Shown one piece after another: positions 4,886 to 20,534 of a DNA stretch of 21,173 nucleotides; the stretch's first letter is position 1; each line of letters starts with the position of its first letter. A program made the position numbers and the translations under genes. Under the pieces are notes generated by a model. It had not been told where the DNA came from, did not search any database, and saw only the letters and a list, made by a program, of their open reading frames with translations. Source of the DNA: a virus. The stretch covers positions 1 through 21,173 of IMG/VR virus record IMGVR_UViG_3300028581_000288; one strand, given 5' to 3'.

Positions 4886-5548
4886 CTAGTCTTCGTCTAT
4901 GATTTTGTACTTGCGTTGAATTTTTAATCCTCTTGTAACTTTTAAATGATCGTTGTCTAAATCTCTGTCGGGAGGCTCGGCGGTAGCGTCGTAAGGTTTG
5001 CTTGTAAACCTTCTTACCTTCTCGATCTCCATTCTGTCAGCAGGTACTTCTAGACGAGGAACATCTTCTACGTGTTTGCGAATATCTTCTACGTGCTGAT
5101 CTACATAATCGTGCTCTTTTTCAAGATTCATTTTCTTGGCAAAAAATTTAATTTGTTTTGCAAGCAGCTCTGCATCCTGTATGTCTTGAGGTACGGCACG
5201 CTCTTTTGCTTTAACTGTTTTATGAATACCAAATAATTTATCATGTAGTATTACAGACTTTTCAGCCATATTAGCATCTACGTTATCTGGTAAATTTTGC
5301 CCGTATAATTTTTGTGCACTTGGTGACATTTCAAAATGCTGAGTCCTATAGGTTCCAGCGGCAACTTGATCACGCTGATCTTTCTCAACATTCTCTCTAC
5401 CCGATGGTCTAATCTCTACTCCGGTCATAGCTTTTTCACCTAGCATAATTCTTTTAGCCATATCGTAAAGCGACTTATGAGACTCGCCTATTGCGTTACC
5501 TCTTAGAACATCAAGTACTATAGAATTAAGGCTTGTATATTTCATCAT
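4886..5548 (-). CDS. Hypothetical late phage protein, 220 residues
   Basis: I do not recognise this family with confidence. The protein begins MMKYTSLNSIVLDVLRGNAI and has an IxE site (IGES) near residue 20. The middle part is charged and helical (KSLYDMAKRIMLGEKAMTG; QDAELLAKQIKFFAKKMNLE). The C-terminal third is acidic and Pro-poor (HVEDIRKHVEDVPRLEVPAD, then DRDLDNDHLK). No membrane segment, signal or enzyme motif is seen. The ATG overlaps the Dps stop (ATGA). Its start-side sequence and its place between Dps and the EF-hand-like gene fit a packaged or assembly protein, which remains an inference. Confidence 0.6.
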   Translation of the reverse strand: MMKYTSLNSIVLDVLRGNAIGESHKSLYDMAKRIMLGEKAMTGVEIRPSGRENVEKDQRDQVAAGTYRTQHFEMSPSAQKLYGQNLPDNVDANMAEKSVILHDKLFGIHKTVKAKERAVPQDIQDAELLAKQIKFFAKKMNLEKEHDYVDQHVEDIRKHVEDVPRLEVPADRMEIEKVRRFTSKPYDATAEPPDRDLDNDHLKVTRGLKIQRKYKIIDED

Positions 5549-5985
5549 GCACCTGCCGTTATTGATCTGATCATCCAGGCATGCTTTTCATGGGCCTGTA
5601 TACGATCTTGTAAGTAATTAGATATGCCGTACTGCTTTAGTTCTTCAGCTTTTTCATACGCTTTAATTAAAGAGCTCTTTACTGTCTGATTGTCGTTGTA
5701 AAGAGCATTGAACATAATAACAGTTGACGGAACGGACTCGGCGTCTTGTACTTGAGATAGTTCTTTGTATCGTCCAAGCGAGCCTGGTGCCACTTCATTA
5801 ATCGTTCTTATTAGTTCAGCAATGTTATCAACTGACCCATATACCTCTTCATACAAATCACCGAGAAAGGAATGATATTGAGGGAAGTTTTCTCCTACAA
5901 CATTCCAATGATAGAACTGGGCTTTTAAATAAAAAGCAAAAGAGTTCGCTAAAGATATTTTGAGTAGTTGTTTTAATTCATCCAT
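5545..5985 (-). CDS. Dps-like ferritin (DNA protection / ferroxidase)
   Basis: A 146-residue four-helix ferritin-like protein of the Dps family. Counting from the ATG at 5985, His26, His38, Asp53 and Glu57 have the spacing (12, 15, 4) of the four main ferroxidase ligands of E. coli Dps (His51, His63, Asp78, Glu82). The surrounding FYHWNVVGENFPQYH and YGSVDNIAELIRTI are typical. Dps shells oxidise and store iron, use peroxide, and may coat DNA; this copy has no Lys-rich N-terminal tail. A GTG at 5994 would add three residues, but the ATG has better spacing to AAGG. It follows the 88-residue gene by 2 bases and is surrounded by putative head-internal proteins, so it may protect packaged DNA; that is inference. 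Confidence 0.85.
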   Translation of the reverse strand: MDELKQLLKISLANSFAFYLKAQFYHWNVVGENFPQYHSFLGDLYEEVYGSVDNIAELIRTINEVAPGSLGRYKELSQVQDAESVPSTVIMFNALYNDNQTVKSSLIKAYEKAEELKQYGISNYLQDRIQAHEKHAWMIRSITAGA

Positions 5986-5987
5986 AA

Positions 5988-6254
5988 TTACCACGCCTTA
6001 CAAGACCAATATCTCGCTTTAGTTTTTGGACCGGGATCATCACAATTATGTCTTGCTCTAAAACTTCTACGTCTAGCAGGAATATGTTTTTTAATGGTCA
6101 TATTCTTATCACCAAAATTAACTTTAACAACATTGCCTGCTGCATTCTTAACATACACCTTAGACTTCTTAACGTCCCCGGCCATAGGTTTATTAAGGGG
6201 TACTTCTCTACCCTGGTGCGTTGCCTCTTCAAAATATTCTTTAAATTTTAACAT
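5988..6254 (-). CDS. DUF5872-like small basic phage protein
   Basis: An 88-residue basic protein. The pattern GREVPLNKPM, then KVYVKNAAGNVVKVNFGDKN, then FRARHNCDDPG and TKARYWSCK matches a family I recall as DUF5872 (RxSFxARHxC ... YWSC). The conserved His and two Cys could bind a metal or form a disulfide. Function is unknown. The protein begins MLKFKEYFEEA, which resembles the short amphipathic capsid-targeting starts of T4 internal proteins, although the residue before EE is Phe rather than Leu or Ile. It is coupled by TAATG to the gene before it. Its high charge and placement suggest a DNA-associated virion protein, as inference. Confidence 0.7.
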   Translation of the reverse strand: MLKFKEYFEEATHQGREVPLNKPMAGDVKKSKVYVKNAAGNVVKVNFGDKNMTIKKHIPARRRSFRARHNCDDPGPKTKARYWSCKAW

Positions 6255-6952
6255 TATTTACCTTTATGCATGTTAATGTACCAATGGGCAAGTTGCTTTT
6301 GTCTGGGTGAAGCCGAATCAGACGATCTTATTTTTTTAAGTTGAGCAATAGTCTTACCTTTTAATCCGTGTCTAGACATATCGCCTTTATCTTCTGGATT
6401 CTTACCATCCATAAAATTCTCTTCTTGCTGTCTACGTTCCATCTCAGCAATAACAGAAGGATGATGGGCAAATGCACTTCTTGCATGTATGCCAAGATCG
6501 GCAGCAGTATACATTACCCCTAACCCTACTGGGCGATCAATAACAAAGTTCTCATTTAAGCTTTCCTTAACAGATTGTCCAGGAGTATCTTTTTTATATT
6601 TTTTCGTTAGCTTATCTGTTCCCCAATCCCCAGCACCGCCTGTTTCTTTTATTGCTTCTACTTTAGATGCAACAGCTTTACCTACACCTTTTGACTTATA
6701 AAATTTTATTGCACGCTCCATAGCTGCTTCATTAGAGTCAGCCTGTACCTTTAATTTACGTTCAATACGAGCTTGTACGCCTGAGGTTAAAGGATCATGC
6801 ATATGCACTGTTACAACATGAGTATGTTTTAGAGGAGCCTTTTCCTCTTTAATACCCGGTAGCCGTTTTAAAGCAACAGAGTTATTTTCCGGAGCTTTAA
6901 AATTCTCCGGATCTCTACCTATCAACGATTTAAGTTTTTGTAACGTTATCAT
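6254..6952 (-). CDS. Modular late phage protein sharing a domain with the 1172-residue protein
   Basis: A 232-residue protein. Residues 44-99 (VVTVHMHDPLTSGVQARIER, then KVQADSNEAAMERAIKFYKS) are similar to residues 669-727 of the neighbouring giant protein, so the two share a small alpha/beta module. Residues 117-126 carry KKYKKDTPGQ, a motif also seen in the EF-hand-like protein. The C-terminal part has FVIDRPVGLGVMYTAADLGI and SASPRQKQLAHWYINMHKGK; the latter is a recurrent ending in T4-like phage proteins, by recall. No signal or membrane segment is present. The start overlaps the giant gene's stop by 4 bases. Function is unknown; a packaged or scaffold-associated role is inferred. Confidence 0.65.
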   Translation of the reverse strand: MITLQKLKSLIGRDPENFKAPENNSVALKRLPGIKEEKAPLKHTHVVTVHMHDPLTSGVQARIERKLKVQADSNEAAMERAIKFYKSKGVGKAVASKVEAIKETGGAGDWGTDKLTKKYKKDTPGQSVKESLNENFVIDRPVGLGVMYTAADLGIHARSAFAHHPSVIAEMERRQQEENFMDGKNPEDKGDMSRHGLKGKTIAQLKKIRSSDSASPRQKQLAHWYINMHKGK

Positions 6953-9900
6953 TTTCTCTTAGCGGCTAGGTAGGCGGCTATTGCCATCTGTCTACGCTTT
7001 TCTTTCGACTTACCTTGAAATTGTGGAGCATCAGACTTTTTAAAGTCACTTACGTATTCACCAGCACCCATCGATGGTTTCAATTTTTCTTCTAACTCAA
7101 CTTCTTCTTTAGCTAAACGATCAATAGCTTTAGCTGCGCCCATTTCACGTGATTGTGCTTTCATTTTTACTTGACGTCCCAATCGTGCGAGCGCGGCTTT
7201 TGTATTTGAGCTACGTTTTATTCTGCTTAAAGCTTCATACTCTTTTCCTGTACCTTGCTTTAAACGAGCATCGGTTACTGCTTTCTTTGCATAAGAAGCA
7301 AGAGTAGGTTTAGAGAGCTCTTCAATCTCTTCAACTTCTTCTGAATATTTCTTTTTCAAATAACTAACAACTTTTCGTTCGTATTCACTCTTAGGTGCTT
7401 TAGGTACACTGGTCTTTGCTTTATTCAGAATTTTTTTGTGGGTAGGGTCGACTTCTTCTTTAGTTAAACGGTCGACCGCTTTTGCAACATTGTCACTACG
7501 CTTCCATGATTTTTGCTTATGTTTACTCGACAATCCATAATAAGCATCTCTCGTACTAGGTTTTCTTGATGTCATTGCTTTGTGATCAAAATCTTTACTA
7601 ATCATAGAATTAATTCTAGCATTAGTTGATGCTTTCTTTACATATGAACCAAGAGTAGATTTAGATAATTCGTCTAGATTTTCTTCATTTTTCATAGCAG
7701 CCTTACGACGGTCTATTTCTTTTTGTTGTGCTTCAATTTCTTTTTGAAGTTTTTTGGCTTCGTCTCCATGCTCTTTTGCAGCTGCACCTAATGTGCGGCC
7801 AGAAATACTTTTAAATCTAGCATTAATTCTACCGTAGGCAGAAGTTGCTTCATCAAAATGATGATAGCCAACGGTGGTCTTCTTAGCAGTACTTGAACCG
7901 GTGTTATGATGAACCAAATGTACTTGATCACCTTCACGATGAGCATGAACTTGACGACCAGTCTCATCTTTGAAAGTGGTCTTCATACCCGGTCTTAGAT
8001 TCTTAATAGCAGCCTGGTGTTCAGGATGTAAAGGATAAGAAGTAGAAGATCCATCATGTACTGTAACCATTTTACCCCAGGAGTAATTTTTCTTCTCTAC
8101 CTTAACCGCTTCGTTCATAATAGCCTCTTCTCTAACTGCTTTTTTTTGATTAAGATTCTTCATTGCAGCGCGTGCAAGATGTCTGGCTCTTGACATAGGT
8201 GTATGTACTGCACCAGATTTGTCTTTAACATTGCCGGCAACTTTTCTACCACCTTCAAAAGGAGGAGTATCTGGTTTGGTCTCTTCTACAATGCCAATAT
8301 GATTGGCATCGTGAATTTTATATCCTTGTTTTTTGTAATGATGTTTTGCTAGTTCAACGGCGTCGCTTTCACTCTTAGCACTTATTCTAACTTTCTTTTC
8401 CATCTTTTCTTTACGTTTAGATACCATAGTATGCTGGGGATCCGAAACAGTTACTGACACTCTATGTTTAAGTTCTGGTTCTGATTTAGTAGATCCTGCT
8501 CTTGAAGCTGATGCTCTGGCTGCCATTGCAATTGCAGCGTCGCTTCTTTCTTTACTATTACTTTCATTAATTCCAGCTTTCTGTCTCCACTGCTGGCCAT
8601 GTTTTTGAATAAGTCTTTTATGGGCAGCTTTTAATGACATAGCAGCTGCTGGGGCCATGTTAGGAGTTTCATCGCTTAATGCACGGTGAATTTTTTGAGC
8701 TTCAGCTTTTTCTTTGTCAGACATTTCTACTGCCTCGCCAAAACTGGAAGCAAATCTTTTAAATGTTCCTAATACACTCGTTGATTTAGGAGGGGCTACT
8801 TTACCCAATGTACCTGTTTTAGCTGTTGTTGTTTTAGCAGCAGGTTGATCGGAGGGGGAGGTATATTCATTAGGTGAGCGAGCTGTTTTCTTAGCACTTA
8901 ATCCCACGCGCTTGATATAATCACCTCTTGTAATCTGACCAGATTGCCATGCTTTGCGATGCGCCTCTACGTCAGCTGGTTTAACTGAATAGTAAGCCTC
9001 ATTAGTTGTCTCTTCTGGTACACAATTAGGTACTTGTCTGCCGTTTTTCATTTTAGTTCCTACTGGTTTATAGCCTTTCCAGCAAGGGTTGTCCTTAGGA
9101 TCTTTTAATCCCTCTGCTAGCCTGGCGCACTGGGCGTTAATAGAAATAAACGCTGCCTGCTCTCTTGTTTGTTCTTCTAATTCTTGAGCACCAAGATAGG
9201 CATCGCGATACATTTCAAACATTTGTACTAACTCTATTTTATACTTCTCTGATTTTTTCTCTAATGCTTTAAAATTATTTTCACTGATGTAAACGTCTTT
9301 TTCTGCCATCTCAACAAATAGATTAAGTAAGGGGTCATGCTCATAATGTTGTATAACAGGACCCGACGCTTTAACCCTTGTTGATTTGCCAAGCTGTTTG
9401 GCAGTAAAGCGCTGTACTTCGGCTTGTTTAATTCTAGGCATTAACCTTGCAGCAATAAACTTAATAAGTTTTACTTTAGGGTCAATCTGTCTATCGATAT
9501 TAATTTTATCTGATGGGCCTAGCTGATGATAGGAAGAACCTCTACGGCCGGCAATTCTTCTTCTTAAGATGTCTTTTGCTTGTTTACGAGCACGGCGAGT
9601 AAGCTGGACTTGACCGGCTAGCCTTTTGGCGGCCATTGCACGCTTGACTTTAAGTACTGGCTCTAATCTTCTCATTTGAGTAGCACGCTGTCTTCTTTGC
9701 TGAAGAGTAAGAACGCGCTCTTCTAATTCTGTTTCTTCTACACCCTCTCCAACCGTTCTAATATGATTGGCGATTTCATCGGCATGGGGATGTAAGGCTT
9801 TTGGAAGACCAGATTTAAATTGTTTCATTTCTCCAGCTCTTGCATGGGCGCGAAGCTTAGTACCTGACATACCTTCTGCTCCTTCGGCATCTGGATCTCT

Positions 9901-10467
9901 TTCTCCAGCTGACACAAATTTAATGGAATCAAAGTTAAAGAATCCATGCTTACCTTCTTTACCGTTGTATTTTTCTAACTTATCTTTGTATTCGTTAATT
10001 CGATCGCTTCCAGCGACGATAACGAGATGTTTGTTTCCAGCAGCATGGAGTTTCGATGCAGCATGAAAGATGGTTGGCTCGGACTTAGAAGAGCCATGGA
10101 CCTCCGTGCCTTTACCGGCTACTTTTTTAAGGTATCCAATTTTCTTAGACTGCGGGAGAGGGTCTTTAGATGTATTTTCAGAATGGCTGGCAAAAATATG
10201 AGCCGAACCACTATGCTCATCAGCGGTGCTTTTTACTTTATTAATTAGTTTCTCGTGGCCTACTGTTGGCGGATTATATCGCCCGAAAGCCATGACGGCT
10301 GTAGAATTCTCAGATTCTTCTAAATTAGAGGTTTTTGGATCTTGAGGATTTACGTTAATGGCATCCAAAGGCTTGCCGGTAACGGATCTACCCTTTGGTG
10401 CTTTAATGTCTTTTTCCGAATTGTTTTTCTTAGCACCTAGTGCTAATTGTTTTTCATTATTATCCAT
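6949..10467 (-). CDS. Giant modular protein with N-terminal nucleotidylyltransferase domain
   Basis: A 1172-residue, mostly basic mosaic. Residues 55-240 form an adenylyl/cytidylyltransferase-like domain: FGRYNPPTVGH with the TxGH motif (68-71), a VIVAGSD segment (149-154) and SGTKLR (201-206), the equivalent of the ISxTxxR site; NMN or a related substrate is possible. Residues 250-355 are an Arg/Lys-rich helical module (LTLQQRRQRATQMRR). Residues 455-485 hold NPCWKGYKPVGTKMKNGRQV; 667-727 a V-x-V-x-DP module shared with the next protein; about 797-871 a beta-rich, His-rich module; 931-1006 and 1049-1123 two copies of an ELSK...DRLxKEEV repeat; 1131-1172 a common ending (AGEYVSDFKKSDAPQF, then MAIAAYLAAKRK). 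LxE or IxE sites occur near module borders. A late promoter lies upstream. Probably packaged in the head, perhaps cleaved; this is inferred. Confidence 0.75.
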   Translation of the reverse strand: MDNNEKQLALGAKKNNSEKDIKAPKGRSVTGKPLDAINVNPQDPKTSNLEESENSTAVMAFGRYNPPTVGHEKLINKVKSTADEHSGSAHIFASHSENTSKDPLPQSKKIGYLKKVAGKGTEVHGSSKSEPTIFHAASKLHAAGNKHLVIVAGSDRINEYKDKLEKYNGKEGKHGFFNFDSIKFVSAGERDPDAEGAEGMSGTKLRAHARAGEMKQFKSGLPKALHPHADEIANHIRTVGEGVEETELEERVLTLQQRRQRATQMRRLEPVLKVKRAMAAKRLAGQVQLTRRARKQAKDILRRRIAGRRGSSYHQLGPSDKINIDRQIDPKVKLIKFIAARLMPRIKQAEVQRFTAKQLGKSTRVKASGPVIQHYEHDPLLNLFVEMAEKDVYISENNFKALEKKSEKYKIELVQMFEMYRDAYLGAQELEEQTREQAAFISINAQCARLAEGLKDPKDNPCWKGYKPVGTKMKNGRQVPNCVPEETTNEAYYSVKPADVEAHRKAWQSGQITRGDYIKRVGLSAKKTARSPNEYTSPSDQPAAKTTTAKTGTLGKVAPPKSTSVLGTFKRFASSFGEAVEMSDKEKAEAQKIHRALSDETPNMAPAAAMSLKAAHKRLIQKHGQQWRQKAGINESNSKERSDAAIAMAARASASRAGSTKSEPELKHRVSVTVSDPQHTMVSKRKEKMEKKVRISAKSESDAVELAKHHYKKQGYKIHDANHIGIVEETKPDTPPFEGGRKVAGNVKDKSGAVHTPMSRARHLARAAMKNLNQKKAVREEAIMNEAVKVEKKNYSWGKMVTVHDGSSTSYPLHPEHQAAIKNLRPGMKTTFKDETGRQVHAHREGDQVHLVHHNTGSSTAKKTTVGYHHFDEATSAYGRINARFKSISGRTLGAAAKEHGDEAKKLQKEIEAQQKEIDRRKAAMKNEENLDELSKSTLGSYVKKASTNARINSMISKDFDHKAMTSRKPSTRDAYYGLSSKHKQKSWKRSDNVAKAVDRLTKEEVDPTHKKILNKAKTSVPKAPKSEYERKVVSYLKKKYSEEVEEIEELSKPTLASYAKKAVTDARLKQGTGKEYEALSRIKRSSNTKAALARLGRQVKMKAQSREMGAAKAIDRLAKEEVELEEKLKPSMGAGEYVSDFKKSDAPQFQGKSKEKRRQMAIAAYLAAKRK

Positions 10468-10530: not shown

Positions 10531-11844
10531 TTATCTCGTTATCTCTTCCCAGTCCATTGATGCGAAGATGTCAGCACCAGCAGTCTGTGTTGCAGCACAT
10601 AAAGTTAATTCAAACGGGACTCCAGTCAATCCGTTTCTTTCCAGCTGAAACTTAAACAACGCTTCTTTAAGAATATCAATTGATGTTCTACTCTGATTTG
10701 TTGCAGAAGTAAATCCTGATGCCAGTATCCTTCCCCCGGTAATAGTTCCCCCATCTATCTTATATTCCACTGCAGAACTGTCTCCAGCACTAACCCAAGT
10801 ACCCCCTGATGTTGTCCCTGATGCTCTAACCTGCCAGTTGTATACAGCATTGTTAGTGATACCAAGCAAAGATAACGCAGTCAGTATGACAATTGCATCA
10901 AGTCTATCTGGGCTTGTTTTTAATCTTAGCGATATGAGAGTGTAGTATGTACTTACATCAGTCAGATCTATTGGAGTTGCTACGGGAGTCTGTACTGCTT
11001 GCTGAGACCCATACAGCTCATATCCCCCTTCAGAGATAACTGTAGAACATATTTGTTTGAGTGTACTTGATGAAGCAGTTGTTCCTGTGTTTTTAATTTC
11101 ATATCGTATTGGCAGATTTGCTGTCGTCATATATGGAACTGTGTTCCTATTATCATTATGAAATACATGCGCAATAAGCATCTTACCGTCAACTACAAAA
11201 CCACATCTTAAATCACCTACTCCTAACCATTCAATATCAAACCATAAAATGTTTGTTTTCGAAACATCAAGCCCTGAGGTATGCGCAGGCTCCGATCCTT
11301 GTGCAGATAGCCCAGTACCATCAAATTTATCCACATTCCAATCAGCTTGTGCTACTCGAGTCTCAACCACTGCTCCAGATGTATAGGTTCTTAGCACAAA
11401 GTAATTTGTTGTACCATTATTTTCTAAATATACACCATTCTGCGCTCCAAAGTATCCTATACGCTGTCTTAAATTTGGTTTAGGCGTACTCATTGCAAAA
11501 GTATTAAGCACTAAAAGAGACTTTCCAGGCTGATACGAAAATACTTTAGTGGTCTCTCTAATTACCTCAGTATTAGCAGAAGCATCTACGTTTAAGTTAA
11601 TAGTAGATTGATTGGTAACAAAAGCGTATGTGCCTCCTGAAGTATTAGATGTTGACCATAATCCATTATCTAAAAAACGATGTGAGCTATCAAACAGTGT
11701 TACCGGTTGAGATATTCTCAGACGACCGAATGCATCGGTAAGAGTGCCAGAAGGAGATAGTCTATCAGACAACATAAAGATTTCAAAACGGGTAGAGACC
11801 TGTTTTGAATCAATTTTATTTTGATCTAATCTAAACTGTGCCAT
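10531..11844 (-). CDS. Virion structural (tail-fibre or surface) protein of T4-like phages
   Basis: A 437-residue beta-rich protein. Recognisable segments are DAFGRLRISQPVTLFDSSHR (38-57), LRQRIGYFGAQNGVYLENNG, TNILWFDIEWLGVGDLRCGF, FHNDNRNTVPYMTTANLPIR and LKQICSTVISEGGYELYG. From memory these mark a large family of structural proteins in marine T4-like and other aquatic phages; the lectin-like core suggests a surface or fibre role. No signal or membrane segment. The start is coupled to the preceding gene by TAATG with a GAGAGAG ribosome site. The gene ends in a gap that holds the late promoter of the giant gene. Confidence 0.72.
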   Translation of the reverse strand: MAQFRLDQNKIDSKQVSTRFEIFMLSDRLSPSGTLTDAFGRLRISQPVTLFDSSHRFLDNGLWSTSNTSGGTYAFVTNQSTINLNVDASANTEVIRETTKVFSYQPGKSLLVLNTFAMSTPKPNLRQRIGYFGAQNGVYLENNGTTNYFVLRTYTSGAVVETRVAQADWNVDKFDGTGLSAQGSEPAHTSGLDVSKTNILWFDIEWLGVGDLRCGFVVDGKMLIAHVFHNDNRNTVPYMTTANLPIRYEIKNTGTTASSSTLKQICSTVISEGGYELYGSQQAVQTPVATPIDLTDVSTYYTLISLRLKTSPDRLDAIVILTALSLLGITNNAVYNWQVRASGTTSGGTWVSAGDSSAVEYKIDGGTITGGRILASGFTSATNQSRTSIDILKEALFKFQLERNGLTGVPFELTLCAATQTAGADIFASMDWEEITR

Positions 11845-15464: not shown

Positions 15465-15851
15465 TTAACGTCTGACTGGTGAGATTTTCTGAGGAACCTG
15501 AGCAGGATTCTTGGGTAATTGTGGTAATCGTTTGTAGAGTTCTTCCCAGTTTCTATCGTGATCGTTTATTGCTTGAGTAATAATCTGTATATTTGCGTCT
15601 TGCTCTTTATTTTTTATGTCAGCAGATTCTACTCTTTCAATAATGTTTGTTCTGGACTTCTCTGCTATAGTAAATCTTTCTTCTAACAGCTGCATTCTTA
15701 ACTTAAAGTAATCAACATCGTTACCTCTTGACCACGCAATACCGAGTAGTACTACTACGACGGCGCCCGAGACAGCCAGTAAAACGACGGCTATCTCGAA
15801 CTTGTCTTGCGATGTTAACTGATTGTAGATGTATTTAAGTTTTGTAATCAC
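15465..15851 (-). CDS. Single-pass membrane protein with coiled coil
   Basis: A 128-residue protein with a GTG start (15851) 10 bases after the protease stop; the ribosome site is weak. Residues about 20-41 are one hydrophobic segment (FEIAVVLLAVSGAVVVVLLG). Residues about 48-105 are a charged coiled coil (FKLRMQLLEERFTIAEKSRT, then AINDHDRNWEELYKRL). The last 20 residues are Pro-rich (LPQLPKNPAQVPQKISPVRR). The design is like an i-spanin or a membrane anchor, but a spanin pair is already present at the other end, so another role is likely. It follows the secreted protease in the same operon and could work with it at the envelope; this is inference. Confidence 0.6.
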   Translation of the reverse strand: MITKLKYIYNQLTSQDKFEIAVVLLAVSGAVVVVLLGIAWSRGNDVDYFKLRMQLLEERFTIAEKSRTNIIERVESADIKNKEQDANIQIITQAINDHDRNWEELYKRLPQLPKNPAQVPQKISPVRR

Positions 15852-15861
15852 CAGCTATTTA

Positions 15862-17892
15862 TTAGAACGTTTTTACAAATTTAATAGCTACTACGTTATC
15901 AGTTACACCTGCCTGACCTCCCACATTCATCTGATGCGTTAGGTTCACAGCTACTTGAGTATCTGTTTTAATGCTAGCTGTATAACCAAGCACTAAGTCA
16001 ATCTGCCGGGAAGTAGCTTTGAGATTAACATTGTCTGACTGTGAGATCGGATTAGCGATGAAATCACCATTACCGTCGTCTACGTAATCATATCCTGTTA
16101 CGGCTGTTACAGTAGCCGATCCTCTCTTAATAGCAACCGGCCCTTGCAGACTCAGGCTAACGGTATCACTGCTCTTATCAGATAAGAATACGTTACTTCT
16201 ACTCAATCCAACCTTCCAAGTATCGCTGTAGATAGTAGGACTGAGGTTAATAATACTACCGTCGTACTTACTTGTACTAGTAACACCCAAGACATAGTTA
16301 GCATTAAAGCTTACCTTTTCAGTTAAAGGCTTAACTACGCCTCCGCCAACCCAGGTTGTACGAGTATCACCAAAACCGGTTACCCCAGTTGCATAGTTAT
16401 TCAAAAACCCTGACTGTTCGGACATAGTTCCAAACTGAAGGGAAGTTGTGTAATCTGCTTTTACTGACTTAACTTCAAACCCCATACCGTTATCGGTCTT
16501 AGTTGCTGCCATTGTAGTGTTACGATCTAAGCTAGTAACTACTTCCTGATAGTTAGTAGGAGTCAAAGCAAGATATGGGTTACCATATAATGAACTAGTA
16601 GGCGAGGAACTATTAAACGACTTAGTCAGGTCAATTGTAAAATTACGATCGTACTCATCTGCTACTTGAACGTTCTGTAGAACCGAGCTACGCTTAAGTG
16701 AGGTAGACGTTGATTTAGTAAGTGCTGTTGATGTAGTAAGAACTTTTCCAGTCGTACGTCCACTACCTAGAGGTGCAGTAGTATAGACCAATGCGCCTTG
16801 AGGTCGAGTAGCCTTATCAAAGTTAACTAACCCGTTACCATAAACTTCGTCAACACCCTTGGCTCCTAAGTCAGTTGCAGTATTAATTACTAAGTTAACC
16901 ATTTGATTGGCTTTAAGCTGGGGCCAGGCTTGTTTAATAAGAGCCATGCCGCCTGACACATACGCTGTTGAAACACTAGTTCCGGAAGCGTAACCTACTC
17001 GATTACCTGCAGCTTGTTGATTGGCAATTGCTACTGCTACATTCTCTCCAGGCGCGACTACGAAAAAGTCTTTGACCTGATAGATGTCATTACATTTAGT
17101 ACCTGATAAACTAGTACAAATGTGACCGGCTCGGTTACTAAAAGAACTAATTTGATTCCTAGAGTTAACTGAACCGACGATAATTGCTCGTCCTCCTAAT
17201 ACTAGGTTGCCATTGCTATCGGTCTTAGTTGCGAATGCGGCAGGAAATGCAGAGTATGCAAGCCCTTCATTACCTGACGCTGCTACAAGCACACCATTTT
17301 TATTAGAGGTGGCGTATGAGTTAAGGTCTGATAAAGAATATCCATTCATACTACCGTAGCTAGATGTAGTACGGTAGATACCTTCTCCCACATGTGTAGT
17401 CCTGTCTCTAAAGCTAGTAGCAAAGGGAGAGGCTAGACTAATGTTAACGATGTGAGCACCTTTAGTGTCAGCAATCTTTAGCGCGTCTGTGATTCCTTTA
17501 AAAGTAATACCCGTTCCTTTAGCCCCGCCTTTACTAATTTGAAGTAGCATTAATTTAGCATCTGGCGCAACACCTATCGTACCCTTACCATCAGACTGAC
17601 CGGCAATAATCGAAGCCATTTGTGTACCGTGTGATCCCCAGTACGTGGTCGTGTTTATCGAACTAAGAACACCTACCGATGACACGGCACCTTTAATATC
17701 AGTATGATTAAAGTCAAAACCATCATCAATAATAGCTACTAACGCACCCTTACCGGTAATGCCTCGACTCCATGCCGACGTAACTCCGGTTTGAGTCAGA
17801 ACAGTATTGCGTTGAGTTGTTTCAAGGTTCTGTGCTTGTACCGAAGTAAGAGAGGCACTAACTGCTACTGCTAGAAGAGTCTTCTTAATCAT
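15862..17892 (-). CDS. Secreted subtilisin-like serine protease with C-terminal barrel-like region
   Basis: A 676-residue S8-family peptidase. Residues 1-20 are a Sec signal (MIKKTLLAVAVSASLTSVQA). The catalytic triad is Asp56 (AIIDDGFD), His88 (GSHGTQMAS) and Ser306 (SGTSVSTAYVSG), with oxyanion Asn208 (AASGNEG). Two cysteines (C259, C267) may form a disulfide. The catalytic domain ends near residue 360. A Ser/Thr-rich linker follows, then about 270 residues of alternating beta strands (WVGGGVVKPLTEKVSFNANY) ending in Phe, like an outer-membrane barrel of autotransporter proteases such as SphB1 or NalP. Alternatively the C-terminal part is a secreted beta domain. The gene overlaps the MazG-like gene by ATGA with AAGGA upstream, so it is a true part of the phage operon. 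A secreted bacterial-type protease is unusual for a phage. Confidence 0.82.
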   Translation of the reverse strand: MIKKTLLAVAVSASLTSVQAQNLETTQRNTVLTQTGVTSAWSRGITGKGALVAIIDDGFDFNHTDIKGAVSSVGVLSSINTTTYWGSHGTQMASIIAGQSDGKGTIGVAPDAKLMLLQISKGGAKGTGITFKGITDALKIADTKGAHIVNISLASPFATSFRDRTTHVGEGIYRTTSSYGSMNGYSLSDLNSYATSNKNGVLVAASGNEGLAYSAFPAAFATKTDSNGNLVLGGRAIIVGSVNSRNQISSFSNRAGHICTSLSGTKCNDIYQVKDFFVVAPGENVAVAIANQQAAGNRVGYASGTSVSTAYVSGGMALIKQAWPQLKANQMVNLVINTATDLGAKGVDEVYGNGLVNFDKATRPQGALVYTTAPLGSGRTTGKVLTTSTALTKSTSTSLKRSSVLQNVQVADEYDRNFTIDLTKSFNSSSPTSSLYGNPYLALTPTNYQEVVTSLDRNTTMAATKTDNGMGFEVKSVKADYTTSLQFGTMSEQSGFLNNYATGVTGFGDTRTTWVGGGVVKPLTEKVSFNANYVLGVTSTSKYDGSIINLSPTIYSDTWKVGLSRSNVFLSDKSSDTVSLSLQGPVAIKRGSATVTAVTGYDYVDDGNGDFIANPISQSDNVNLKATSRQIDLVLGYTASIKTDTQVAVNLTHQMNVGGQAGVTDNVVAIKFVKTF

Positions 17893-18149
17893 GCTGCATC
17901 CTTAAAGATGTTTGAGTAAACTTTTAATTTTTCGTACTTTTTATGTTCGGCTATACCATAATTAAAATTACTAATCTCATTCACGTTCATTTTAGCAAGT
18001 TTAATTAAGTACTCAACATCTGCGATCTCTTTACAGAGCTCTTCCACATTGTTTTGTAATCCAAAGCGCCGTACCTTACTCACGGCTTGAATTACCTCGG
18101 CACACTCCTCCTGAAGAATGTCGAGTATTTCTTGCTGCTTATCGTTCAT
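17889..18149 (-). CDS. MazG-like NTP pyrophosphohydrolase
   Basis: An 86-residue all-alpha protein with the short MazG-type core: EECAE (14-18) and EIAD (41-44), the EExxE and ExxD metal-binding signature, within LQEECAEVIQAVSKVRRFG and CKEIADVEYLIKLAKMN. Enzymes of this superfamily hydrolyse nucleoside triphosphates to monophosphates; small phage copies may clean up nucleotides or alter ppGpp-type signalling. Length fits the minimal one-domain type. It overlaps the preceding gene by 11 bases and the protease by 4. The exact substrate cannot be told. Confidence 0.75.
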   Translation of the reverse strand: MNDKQQEILDILQEECAEVIQAVSKVRRFGLQNNVEELCKEIADVEYLIKLAKMNVNEISNFNYGIAEHKKYEKLKVYSNIFKDAA

Positions 18150-18330
18150 AATTTAATCCCTTCTCAAGTTTTGCTAATACATTCTCAACAGAACTAATCT
18201 CTTTATTCATACTACTCAGTAATTCTCCTGGTGAGGACTCATCTACTTTTTCATACATCTCAAACAAGTAACATCTGATACCTTCCATCAGCGTAATAAC
18301 TTCTTCCGGTTTTAGTACTAACGTTATCAT
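18139..18330 (-). CDS. Small hypothetical protein, 63 residues
   Basis: An acidic two-helix-like protein: MITLVLKPEEVITLMEGIRC, FEMYEKVDESSPGELLSSMN, EISSVENVLAKLEKGLNYER. The family is not recognised. There is no clear Shine-Dalgarno; the start lies 9 bases after the SWIM gene stop in an AT-rich leader. It overlaps the MazG-like gene by 11 bases and is probably expressed with it. Confidence 0.55.
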   Translation of the reverse strand: MITLVLKPEEVITLMEGIRCYLFEMYEKVDESSPGELLSSMNKEISSVENVLAKLEKGLNYER

Positions 18331-18339
18331 AATATAATT

Positions 18340-18684
18340 TTAAGGGTTATTGGAAATTAAATCAATGTGTTTACAACGTCCGTGATATTTAAATCCTACA
18401 CAAGAGCATTTGTATCCGCTACTTGACTTCTTGACGGTATAAACGTTACCTGACGACCCTTTCACCTCTATCGTGTCCTCTTCTTTGATACGCTCGAGAA
18501 TCTCAAACTTCCTATACTTGGTACTGATAGACATTGGATTCTTAAACCAGGTCGCCTTCAGATCACGATTACGAATGTAACCGTATGCCTTAGTCATTGA
18601 ATCATTGAATAGATACATGTGATTAAGGTCGTAGGGAGAGTCCCACTCCGACACCTCTTTAGCTATAATCAAAATCGGCCTCAT
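18340..18684 (-). CDS. SWIM zinc-finger protein
   Basis: I place the start at the ATG at 18684 (114 residues), since the upstream part of the frame lies over the 59-residue gene and has low-quality sequence; this start has only a weak ribosome site and is less certain. The N-terminal part (MRPILIIAKEVSEWDSPYDL) leads to a mixed segment (YIRNRDLKATWFKNPMSIST), then a small beta domain (EVKGSSGNVYTVKKSSSGY) and a SWIM motif, CSCVGFKYHGRCKH (CxC, 8 residues, CxH). SWIM fingers bind zinc and act in DNA or protein binding. Similar small SWIM proteins are found in T4-like phages, by recall; their role is unknown. Confidence 0.7.
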   Translation of the reverse strand: MRPILIIAKEVSEWDSPYDLNHMYLFNDSMTKAYGYIRNRDLKATWFKNPMSISTKYRKFEILERIKEEDTIEVKGSSGNVYTVKKSSSGYKCSCVGFKYHGRCKHIDLISNNP

Positions 18685-18838
18685 AGTAAACGGACCAGAC
18701 ATTGCTTGGGGTAACGTTGTACTCCATAGCGATCTCATAAAACACCTCTCGCATCTCATCCCGAGATTCGAATCCTTTTTTTACTTCGACAGCAATAGCC
18801 TCTTGGAGGTCGATTGCTACTGACTTGTAATATCCCAT
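18659..18838 (-). CDS. Small hypothetical protein, 59 residues
   Basis: The ATG overlaps the preceding stop (TAATG). The product is MGYYKSVAIDLQEAIAVEVK, KGFESRDEMREVFYEIAMEY, then NVTPSNVWSVYYEADFDYS. The middle and end could form helices with a turn (EYNVTPSNVW), reminiscent of a small helix-turn-helix, but no confident family match can be given. It overlaps the SWIM gene by 26 bases in another frame. Coupling and an acidic tidy sequence support it being real. Confidence 0.6.
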   Translation of the reverse strand: MGYYKSVAIDLQEAIAVEVKKGFESRDEMREVFYEIAMEYNVTPSNVWSVYYEADFDYS

Positions 18839-19254
18839 TATACAGCTTCCTTCTCAAATTCAAATAACATCTCATTCAACATATCTACTATTTTACGACC
18901 GTAGTCAGTAAACAACATGCCTTGCTTCCACACATAATGCTCAACGCACTGAGGTGAGTGAAAGTCTTCGGCCGATACCATCCATCGCAGGGCAGTACGC
19001 TCGTCACCGGCGCCAGCGGCCTGAAATCTAAGAATGGTGGACTTGAAGTTATCGATAGCGATCTTCTCCTCATTCTCAGCCTCTTGAGCCTGAACATCTA
19101 TGACTTTAGCCATCTGATCGAATTGAGCTTCGAACATTTCGGCCGTCCAGGAGGAAGTATCATTGCGAGGACGACACCCGTAGGCGTCTTTATGCATGTC
19201 AGAATAGATGCAAGAGTATTGCTCAAGCTTGGTTAGTAAGTTCCAAGGTTTCAT
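18838..19254 (-). CDS. Conserved hypothetical phage protein, 138 residues
   Basis: I place the start at 19254, since AAGGAG lies 6 bases upstream and the predicted promoter start falls at about 19275, which excludes the earlier ATG codons. The product begins MKPWNLLTKLEQYSCIYSDM and continues with HKDAYGCRPRND, a segment recalled from many phage and plasmid hypothetical proteins (SDMxKDAYGxRPR). Two long helical parts follow (FEAQFDQMAKVIDVQAQEAE; ALRWMVSAEDFHSP). No catalytic motif is recognised. First gene of the operon that includes the SWIM protein, MazG-like enzyme and protease. Confidence 0.68.
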   Translation of the reverse strand: MKPWNLLTKLEQYSCIYSDMHKDAYGCRPRNDTSSWTAEMFEAQFDQMAKVIDVQAQEAENEEKIAIDNFKSTILRFQAAGAGDERTALRWMVSAEDFHSPQCVEHYVWKQGMLFTDYGRKIVDMLNEMLFEFEKEAV

Positions 19255-19281
19255 AACGATCTCCTTATTCATCATACATTA

Positions 19282-19310
19282 ATTATAGGAAATAGGAGAA
19301 ATTAAGGCAA
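19282..19310 (-). promoter_or_regulatory. Sigma70-like promoter (TTGCCT-17-TATAAT)
   Basis: On the minus strand TTGCCT (19305-19310) and a perfect TATAAT (19282-19287) are 17 bases apart. The leader to the ATG at 19254 is about 21 bases and holds AAGGAG. It drives the operon ending with the protease and the membrane coiled-coil gene. Confidence 0.78.
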
Positions 19311-19311
19311 C

Positions 19312-19335
19312 TAAAAAACCACGAGCTCGCGTGGT
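19312..19335 (-). terminator. Rho-independent terminator
   Basis: On the minus strand a 6-bp stem (ACCACG / CGTGGT) with a six-base loop is followed by five to six T. It lies between the tandem repeats and the promoter at 19282-19310, ending the upstream transcript. It shares stem sequence and loop bases with the hairpin at 15422-15445. Confidence 0.75.
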
Positions 19336-19343
19336 GGTTGCTT

Positions 19344-19403
19344 ACGGCTAGCTGTGGATTAGAACTACGGCTAGATGTGATGATCAAGCACGGCTAGATG
19401 TGA
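19344..19403 (-). repeat. Three tandem 14-base repeats at 23-base period
   Basis: Plus-strand copies begin at 19344 (ACGGCTAGCTGTGG), 19367 (ACGGCTAGATGTGA) and 19390 (ACGGCTAGATGTGA), so the spacing is exactly 23 bases, about two helical turns. The 9 bases between copies are not conserved. Together with the copy at 15451 they look like binding sites for a protein, or RNA signals next to the terminator. Confidence 0.8.
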
Positions 19404-19411
19404 GAATGACC

Positions 19412-19512
19412 TTTAGGTAGTGCACTCATAGGGAGGTAAGGAGATATGATGAGAAGGAGCCCTATAAATGCACTATCTAAAAGTGTAGTGATGTCTCCCG
19501 ACAATACTACAC
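19412..19512. ncRNA. Candidate structured RNA: 22-bp inverted repeat plus second hairpin
   Basis: Two arms, 19412-19433 and 19460-19481, pair over 22 bases with three differences (some wobble pairs). The 26-base loop is purine-rich on the plus strand and contains AAGGAG. A second perfect 7-bp stem (GTGTAGT / ACTACAC) lies at 19483-19489 and 19506-19512. No gene on the minus strand covers this stretch, and a promoter-like element at 19574-19602 could transcribe it. It could be a regulatory RNA, a protein-binding hairpin or an origin-type structure; the strand is open. Confidence 0.45.
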
Positions 19513-19522
19513 GGTACTACAA

Positions 19523-19633
19523 TCATTCGTCTAACGTCTTGTCTTTGTTATAAACTCTAAAACCAGATAATGAATTATAATGAGAAATTAAAGCAATTGC
19601 AACTATTACTACTATCAGTGCTATCCAGATCAT
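19523..19633 (-). CDS. 36-residue single-pass membrane miniprotein
   Basis: The ATG overlaps the preceding stop (ATGA). The product starts with a hydrophobic segment of about 15 residues (MIWIALIVVIVAIALI) and has a polar tail (SHYNSLSGFRVYNKDKTLDE). No signal-type cleavage site is needed; an N-out or N-in anchor is possible. A promoter-like element lies inside the gene. Function unknown; one of three tiny membrane genes in the early region. Confidence 0.6.
   Translation of the reverse strand: MIWIALIVVIVAIALISHYNSLSGFRVYNKDKTLDE
19574..19602 (-). promoter_or_regulatory. Possible sigma70-like promoter inside a small gene (TTGCAA-17-TATAAT)
   Basis: TTGCAA (19597-19602) and TATAAT (19574-19579) on the minus strand are 17 bases apart, inside the 36-residue membrane gene. 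Transcription from here would cover the inverted-repeat region and the tandem repeats and stop at the terminator at 19312-19335, giving an RNA of about 250 bases. Confidence 0.45.
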
Positions 19634-19878
19634 TTTTTGTTCTTTACTCTCTCTATAAGTTCATCGGCCTCTCTAAACTCTACCATCCATCGAACTAGAT
19701 CTTCAGCACTATCAAACTCTTGCAACAACTGATCTCTAACTTTAGTGAACTGCTCCTCCGGTGAGAGAGGTTGTTTATTCTGAAAGTCAAATTGCATGGA
19801 TTTGGCATTGTTGACTAGCTCGGCAAACCGGGCCCAGTCAATCTGATAGTTGATTGGATCTTTAGGTTGTTCTTCCAT
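19630..19878 (-). CDS. Small hypothetical protein, 82 residues
   Basis: A charged helical protein: MEEQPKDPINYQIDWARFAE, LVNNAKSMQFDFQNKQPLSP, then EEQFTKVRDQLLQEFDSAED and a basic end. Not recognised. The ATG is preceded by AGGG; the gene follows the 40-residue membrane gene by 9 bases and overlaps the 36-residue membrane gene by 4. No membrane segment or catalytic motif. Confidence 0.6.
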   Translation of the reverse strand: MEEQPKDPINYQIDWARFAELVNNAKSMQFDFQNKQPLSPEEQFTKVRDQLLQEFDSAEDLVRWMVEFREADELIERVKNKK

Positions 19879-19887
19879 TTTGTACCC

Positions 19888-20010
19888 TTATAGAGTTGTT
19901 ACAATTATGACTACCGATAGACCAATAATGGAGATTGCCAGGATAGTTATTAGTGCATACAAAAGAGTTGACAGCCCTCCAATCAATCGACGTATCCAGC
20001 GCAGTAACAC
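19888..20010 (-). CDS. 40-residue hydrophobic membrane protein
   Basis: A GTG-started frame with GGGGAG 6 bases upstream, just 2 bases after the preceding stop. The product has a basic start (MLLRWIRRLIGGLS) and about 25 very hydrophobic residues (TLLYALITILAISIIGLSVV) with few charges. The positive N-terminus predicts a cytoplasmic N-end. Size would allow a small holin-like or envelope-acting early protein, but nothing more specific is visible. Confidence 0.62.
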   Translation of the reverse strand: MLLRWIRRLIGGLSTLLYALITILAISIIGLSVVIIVTTL

Positions 20011-20012
20011 TT

Positions 20013-20534
20013 CTAGCTCCCCACCCAGACTTCAAATGTATTTTCTTCACCTTCTACTGGAACAAACCTTTCAATAAAGACGTGGCCTCCAAACCCTCTA
20101 ACCGGATCGGTAGCCTTGGCGAGGGTTTCTACAGAATTCCAAAGGTCAAGCCAAGACACTCTTCCTTTAAATCCTTCCACTACCACAGACTCTTTAGAAT
20201 CCCAAGGCGCTATAATCTTAGCCCCGGCCGGTACGTTGGAGGTATTAATAAGGGAGGTAATGTCATAAATGCTCCATTCCGTATGCTTGAAGTTCCGTTC
20301 CTTTTTAAAGCGACTGGCCTGCTCTCTAATAGCATCGTCATGGGTGTCTTTAAGTGCCATCAACTCATCCCGTACCGGTCCAAGATACTTAACCGTCTCA
20401 TTCACATATCTGCTAACATCACTGTTATCTTTAAAATTTTCGGACACTATGCTCTCAAGCCTGCGAAGGTAACACATGGCGTTATGGACGGAGGAGACCT
20501 GTTGTCCGGTGATGGTAAAGGAAATATCGCTCAC
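20013..20534 (-). CDS. Hypothetical phage protein, 173 residues
   Basis: A soluble protein: MSDISFTITGQQVSSVHNAM, then a helical stretch (KYLGPVRDELMALKDTHDDA; REQASRFKKERNFKHTEWSI), then a beta-rich C-terminal part (AGAKIIAPWDSKESVVVEGF, GGHVFIERFVPVEGEENTFE). I do not recognise the family. The start overlaps the preceding stop (ATGA). It belongs to the first complete operon of the early region. Confidence 0.62.
   Translation of the reverse strand: MSDISFTITGQQVSSVHNAMCYLRRLESIVSENFKDNSDVSRYVNETVKYLGPVRDELMALKDTHDDAIREQASRFKKERNFKHTEWSIYDITSLINTSNVPAGAKIIAPWDSKESVVVEGFKGRVSWLDLWNSVETLAKATDPVRGFGGHVFIERFVPVEGEENTFEVWVGS

Follow-up and report, generated by a model that had tools for sequence, protein, structure and literature searches.

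An uncultured virus record in IMG/VR encodes a protease of the subtilisin family (S8), apparently secreted and ending in a C-terminal barrel-like domain. The window, meaning the whole stretch of 21,173 bases analysed here, is this record, and its minus strand holds nearly all of the long open reading frames (ORFs). The protease gene (15862..17892, minus strand) starts with ATG and encodes 676 amino acids, the last of which is Phe. What is new is that the protein belongs to an uncharacterised family that recurs in phages and has a barrel-like domain distinct from PF03797, the classical autotransporter domain. Given that the family recurs in dozens of uncultured viruses, it is probably a real viral tool, and not a stray bacterial gene. 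Its members are frequent in uncultured phage contigs, hidden under the name 'peptidase S8', and if the reading proposed here is right, work on one member could supply a function for many unannotated genes.

The N-terminal half of the protein holds a Peptidase_S8 domain (residues 47-354; 16831..17754, minus strand). The match to PF00082 has an E-value of 2.5e-40 and a score of 139 bits, against a curated cut-off of 21.8, and solved subtilisins in the PDB match the protein with E-values down to 1.7e-19. An earlier note on this DNA had read a complete catalytic set from the sequence, and this holds up. The residues are the triad and oxyanion residue expected of S8, namely the catalytic Asp56 (17725..17727), the catalytic His88 (17629..17631), the oxyanion-hole Asn208 (17269..17271) and the catalytic Ser306 in a GTS motif (16975..16977), all on the minus strand and each found in 48 of 48 family proteins. 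The domain, the catalytic set and the predicted fold all fit membership in Peptidase family S8, and the protein is expected to be an active enzyme. An I9 propeptide found no match in the protease. The positions that are invariant in the 48 non-redundant proteins also include Cys259 and Cys267, and, in the C-terminal half, D412, R416 and E492. The two cysteines (17092..17118, minus strand) are the only ones in the protein, and are likely to form a disulfide of an exported protein.

A Sec signal had also been claimed, and the N-terminus agrees with it. Residues 1-20, MIKKTLLAVAVSASLTSVQA (17833..17892, minus strand), resemble a type I signal peptide with predicted cleavage between MIKKTLLAVAVSASLTSVQA and QN, as judged by reading the sequence and not by a dedicated predictor. 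The mature N-terminus of the window protein has no lipobox Cys; there is an A-Q at the cleavage site instead. Signal-like N-termini are present in 71 of the 75 complete family members, with 62 being type I-like and nine bearing a lipobox by a simple pattern. Members with a lipobox include L019, L020, L022 and L112, and in some members it is combined with a Gly run (LTACGGGGG). A lipobox is thus common to some of the phage proteins and to NalP and SphB1, lipidated subtilase autotransporters that cleave other surface proteins (PMC9289746, PMC9977779).

The C-terminal part had been described as rich in beta-strands, ending in Phe and similar to an autotransporter. AlphaFold2, when supplied with the 48-sequence family alignment, predicts a subtilisin fold and then, at residues 459-674, about 12 antiparallel strands (pLDDT 86.1, pTM 0.79), and the domain as a whole spans residues 459-676 (15865..16518, minus strand). 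A model built from the window protein and that of a sister contig alone reached a pLDDT of 27.7 and was set aside. Hydrophobicity alternates along the strands across the family, with a value of 0.86 versus 0.51 +/- 0.10 in shuffled sequences (5 of 5000 shuffles reach 0.86), and Phe is the terminal residue in 69 of the 77 loci whose 3' end is complete. The predicted strands are amphipathic and resemble those of an outer-membrane barrel. In Foldseek searches of the PDB, all of the matches listed are subtilases (subtilisin, TMt 0.87). Among viral models there is one full-length match (TM 0.90, 42% identity), A0A6J5TBB6 of an uncultured Caudovirales phage, followed by weaker matches to phage-encoded porin, DUF481, OmpC and autotransporter-type barrels. 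A0A6J5TBB6 is a full-length member of the same family; its name, 'Peptidase S8/S53 domain containing protein', covers the S8 domain only and leaves the barrel unmentioned.

The likeness to autotransporters extends to the layout and the predicted barrel, and not to the classical domain or its stalk. Nothing in Pfam matches the C-terminal part of the window protein, and this part alone gave no notable match in Pfam, the PDB, or plasmid and phage sequences. PF03797 matches none of the 43 family members searched, and hhalign of the C-terminal alignment against two PF03797-type barrels returned a probability of 0.1%; the label of classical autotransporter domain was rejected on these grounds. A beta-helical stalk is also absent, since about 100 residues separate the protease from the barrel and AlphaFold2 predicts few short strands there. 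Protease and barrel are joined by a linker motif, D412-x3-R416-x4-D421 (16630..16659, minus strand), in which D412 and R416 are each present in 48 of 48 proteins.

Homologues of the C-terminal domain were found at the C-termini of alphaproteobacterial S8 peptidases, where hhalign gives 98.8% over 180 columns, and hmmsearch agrees. The matching proteins come from Sphingomonadales and Rhodobacterales, and Pfam sees their S8 domain only. Examples such as Sphingosinicella WP_165356663.1 and Rhodobacteraceae QIE43589.1 share the S8 domain, the D-x3-R linker and the homologous C-terminus with the phage protein. Unlike it, these peptidases are bacterial, they are divergent in sequence, several bear a lipobox, and they fall apart from the phage clade in the tree. 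The phage domain appears to combine an autotransporter-like layout with a position outside the classical translocator family. A search with the barrel profile in 192 genomes, from the phylum of a deltaproteobacterial MAG, was empty and, having no positive control, is uninformative. A single-sequence scan of genome contigs matched catalytic domains and nothing else.

Subtilase autotransporters of type Va, such as NalP, SphB1, EprS and Ssp, have the succession of a Sec signal, an N-terminal S8 protease and a C-terminal barrel of the 12-strand type that is predicted for the phage protein. The phage protein differs from them in having neither PF03797 similarity nor a beta-helical stalk or PATR repeat, in being shorter, and in being encoded by a phage. 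By analogy, the protease would leave the cytoplasm through the host Sec pathway, and its barrel of about 12 strands would anchor it in the outer membrane of a Gram-negative host. Facing outward, it could cut cell-surface proteins, as NalP and SphB1 do, and the alteration or removal of receptors or adhesins might result in poorer adsorption of rival phages. Superinfection exclusion would be the most economical benefit for the phage. It is therefore proposed, tentatively and as something short of probable, that the enzyme is an outer-membrane-anchored S8 protease that cuts surface proteins of the infected cell in the manner of NalP and SphB1, perhaps for superinfection exclusion. If true, phages edit the outer surface of their host during replication by means of an autotransporter-like protein of their own. 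Competition of phages with their hosts and with each other at this level is better known from small lipoproteins and proteins of the inner membrane. A wider proposal, that large Gram-negative phages place an outward-facing protease in the outer membrane, stripping receptors and surface proteins, and exchange this proteolytic form of superinfection exclusion among unrelated lineages, is possible but rather doubtful.

The same anchor might hold a protease that faces the periplasm. The barrel would then be an anchor only, and the enzyme would cut periplasmic host envelope or defence proteins. The short linker and the missing stalk suit such an arrangement, as a barrel alone does not imply translocation of the protease, and the two invariant cysteines suit an oxidising compartment. 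The predicted order of signal, protease and barrel with a terminal Phe, however, corresponds to type Va autotransporters, and those with an S8 protease work at the cell surface (PMC9289746), so a periplasmic orientation is considered unlikely.

An outward-facing enzyme might also serve nutrition or competition, digesting environmental proteins or those of neighbours (bacteriocins included) and thereby feeding or protecting the infected cell. A digestive role is indeed common among secreted subtilases. On the other hand, little would be gained per infection cycle, membrane anchoring and the conserved barrel point to a local target, and the gene neighbourhood gives no support, which leaves this explanation with a low probability.

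The earlier note regarded secreted proteases of this kind as rare in phages, which proved wrong for this family. Single-sequence scans of viral contigs found the sister contig only, and full-length relatives surfaced only with alignment-based profile scans. These revealed the family architecture in dozens of IMG/VR contigs and in several genomic contexts, including contigs of 230-307 kb. After ORF extraction, there were 87 loci with the gene (some of which share a contig), and the ORF was complete in 75 of them. In tblastn searches with three family members as queries, 50,697 phage records contained no full-length relative, defined by 80% query cover; the matches were to the catalytic domain and mostly in Bacillus phages. 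Subtilases of Bacillus and Moorella phages (Goe3, SP-15, vB_BcoS-136 and MTATph1) resemble the window protein in having a phage-encoded S8 catalytic domain, but the matches are limited to the catalytic half, and the two annotated proteins that were checked are 328-331 amino acids long, into which the barrel would not fit. A search of the open literature found no described phage S8/autotransporter protease, which does not prove absence. Separately, a record named 'Pseudomonas phage Y5' and marked UNVERIFIED (OQ572407.1; L127:2839-5880) encodes a classical S8 autotransporter of 1014 amino acids with PF03797, possibly from host DNA.

A second contig from a different metagenome, IMGVR_UViG_3300008113_000842, carries the same protease gene with 93% protein identity. 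It keeps the same gene order, so misassembly or contamination is unlikely. S8-barrel peptidases do occur in bacteria, and the gene could in principle be a contaminating bacterial fragment or the product of misassembly instead of a phage gene. Against this, apart from the sister contig, stand the many contigs, of up to ~307 kb, in which phage genes surround a full-length relative, and the codon use of the gene, which matches that of its neighbours; its GC content is not foreign to the window either. A contaminating fragment was rejected for these reasons, and its probability is negligible.

The two contigs differ in a mosaic manner. Codons 1-318 of the protease gene (16939..17892, minus strand) are strongly diverged, with dS of 0.71 and dN of 0.06, in contrast to codons 319-677, where dS is 0.05, and to the nearly identical flanks. 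Such confined divergence marks a recombination patch that starts where the gene starts. Between the two phages, dN/dS in the catalytic half is ~0.085, a low value that indicates purifying selection on this half. A second patch of strong divergence with near-identical flanks, and with the same mosaic pattern, lies at 10531-11430, in a gene for a virion structural protein (phrog_1645).

The phylogeny bears on the source of the gene. In a maximum-likelihood tree, the window's protease falls inside a jumbo-phage clade (98/97 for the clade of 23 rows, 89/88 for the closer join), and the alphaproteobacterial S8 peptidases split from the phage clade with 89/95. Since the window's copy is nested among jumbo-phage copies, transfer between phages is likelier than fresh capture from a host, and the tree suggests that the copy arrived in this way. 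The earlier note's idea of a host-derived gene keeps its force for the ultimate origin of the phage family, which the evidence supports as lying near proteobacterial S8-barrel peptidases; it does less well for the recent source, which is more likely another phage and has left no foreign codon use. In L020, L107, L112, L115 and L118, there are cytidyltransferase-type neighbours like those of the window, yet the protease belongs to another branch of the family, which suggests that this group of phages acquired the gene at least twice and that it was exchanged between phages. A ClpA-like ORF lies close to the protease gene in the same five loci. In the window, a protein of 1172 amino acids (6949-10467) has an N-terminal cytidyltransferase-like domain, followed by a long lysine-rich tail.

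The immediate neighbours of the protease gene are as first described. Its start shares an ATGA overlap with the stop of a MazG-like ORF (17889..18149, minus strand; PF03819 E 1.8e-4, phrog_4856 E 3.2e-12). Downstream lies an ORF (15465..15851, minus strand) with an N-terminal transmembrane stretch and then a heptad-like helix, which is weakly i-spanin-like (phrog_739 E 0.0015) and has no homologue in phage records. This ORF is compatible with a role of the protease in egress, in which a late enzyme would degrade outer-membrane or surface-layer proteins and so release the progeny or free them from debris. However, the window already holds a clear candidate for this step: an o-spanin-like ORF (423-833; phrog_812 E 5.9e-6) overlaps an i-spanin-like ORF (748-1212; phrog_739 E 3.5e-13), and the overlapping ORFs at 420-1212 are likely to be the spanin pair of the phage. 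The presence of this pair implies a host with an outer membrane.

Timing of expression is also relevant to egress. In most members of the jumbo clade, the protease gene lies 26-139 nt behind an AAA ATPase gene, within a replication cluster of the gp32/UvsX/UvsW type; the names gp32-, UvsX- and UvsW-like were assigned by inspection of the sequences, and the helicase has homology support. Of 37 contigs that have a close AAA gene and extend far enough downstream, 29 carry the protease, versus 1 of 25 more distant ones. A motif resembling the T4 late promoter, NATAAATA, shows a strand bias of 76 to 5 in the family loci. A late promoter immediately before the protease was sought in 47 loci and none was found, as the motif was absent within 200 nt upstream in all of them (0/47). 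This is a weak argument, because only 40 of the 581 genes tested have the motif. In the related loci of the ClpA-like/cytidyltransferase group, the late-like motif does occur at a gene a short distance upstream of the protease, which favours egress. Taken with the absence of an adjacent late motif, the position in the replication cluster hints at expression before lysis, and an egress factor is improbable. The proposal of an outer-membrane protease acting on the surface of the infected cell is preferred.

The phage of the window looks like a T4-like myovirus, and the virus is a bacterial one of freshwater type. The nearest relatives of its DUF6267 protein are in cyanomyoviruses, Pelagibacter phage HTVC008M and Methylophilales phages. 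Within the window, NATAAATA occurs six times on the gene (minus) strand and not once on the opposite strand. GC at the third codon position is 0.40-0.52 in four measured ORFs at 17889-20534, versus 0.25-0.36 in the other ORFs. The phage also encodes a tail-fibre-type protein with a collagen-like Gly-X-X repeat (1669-2355) and a Ferritin/Dps-like protein (5545-5994; PF00210, phrog_3636).
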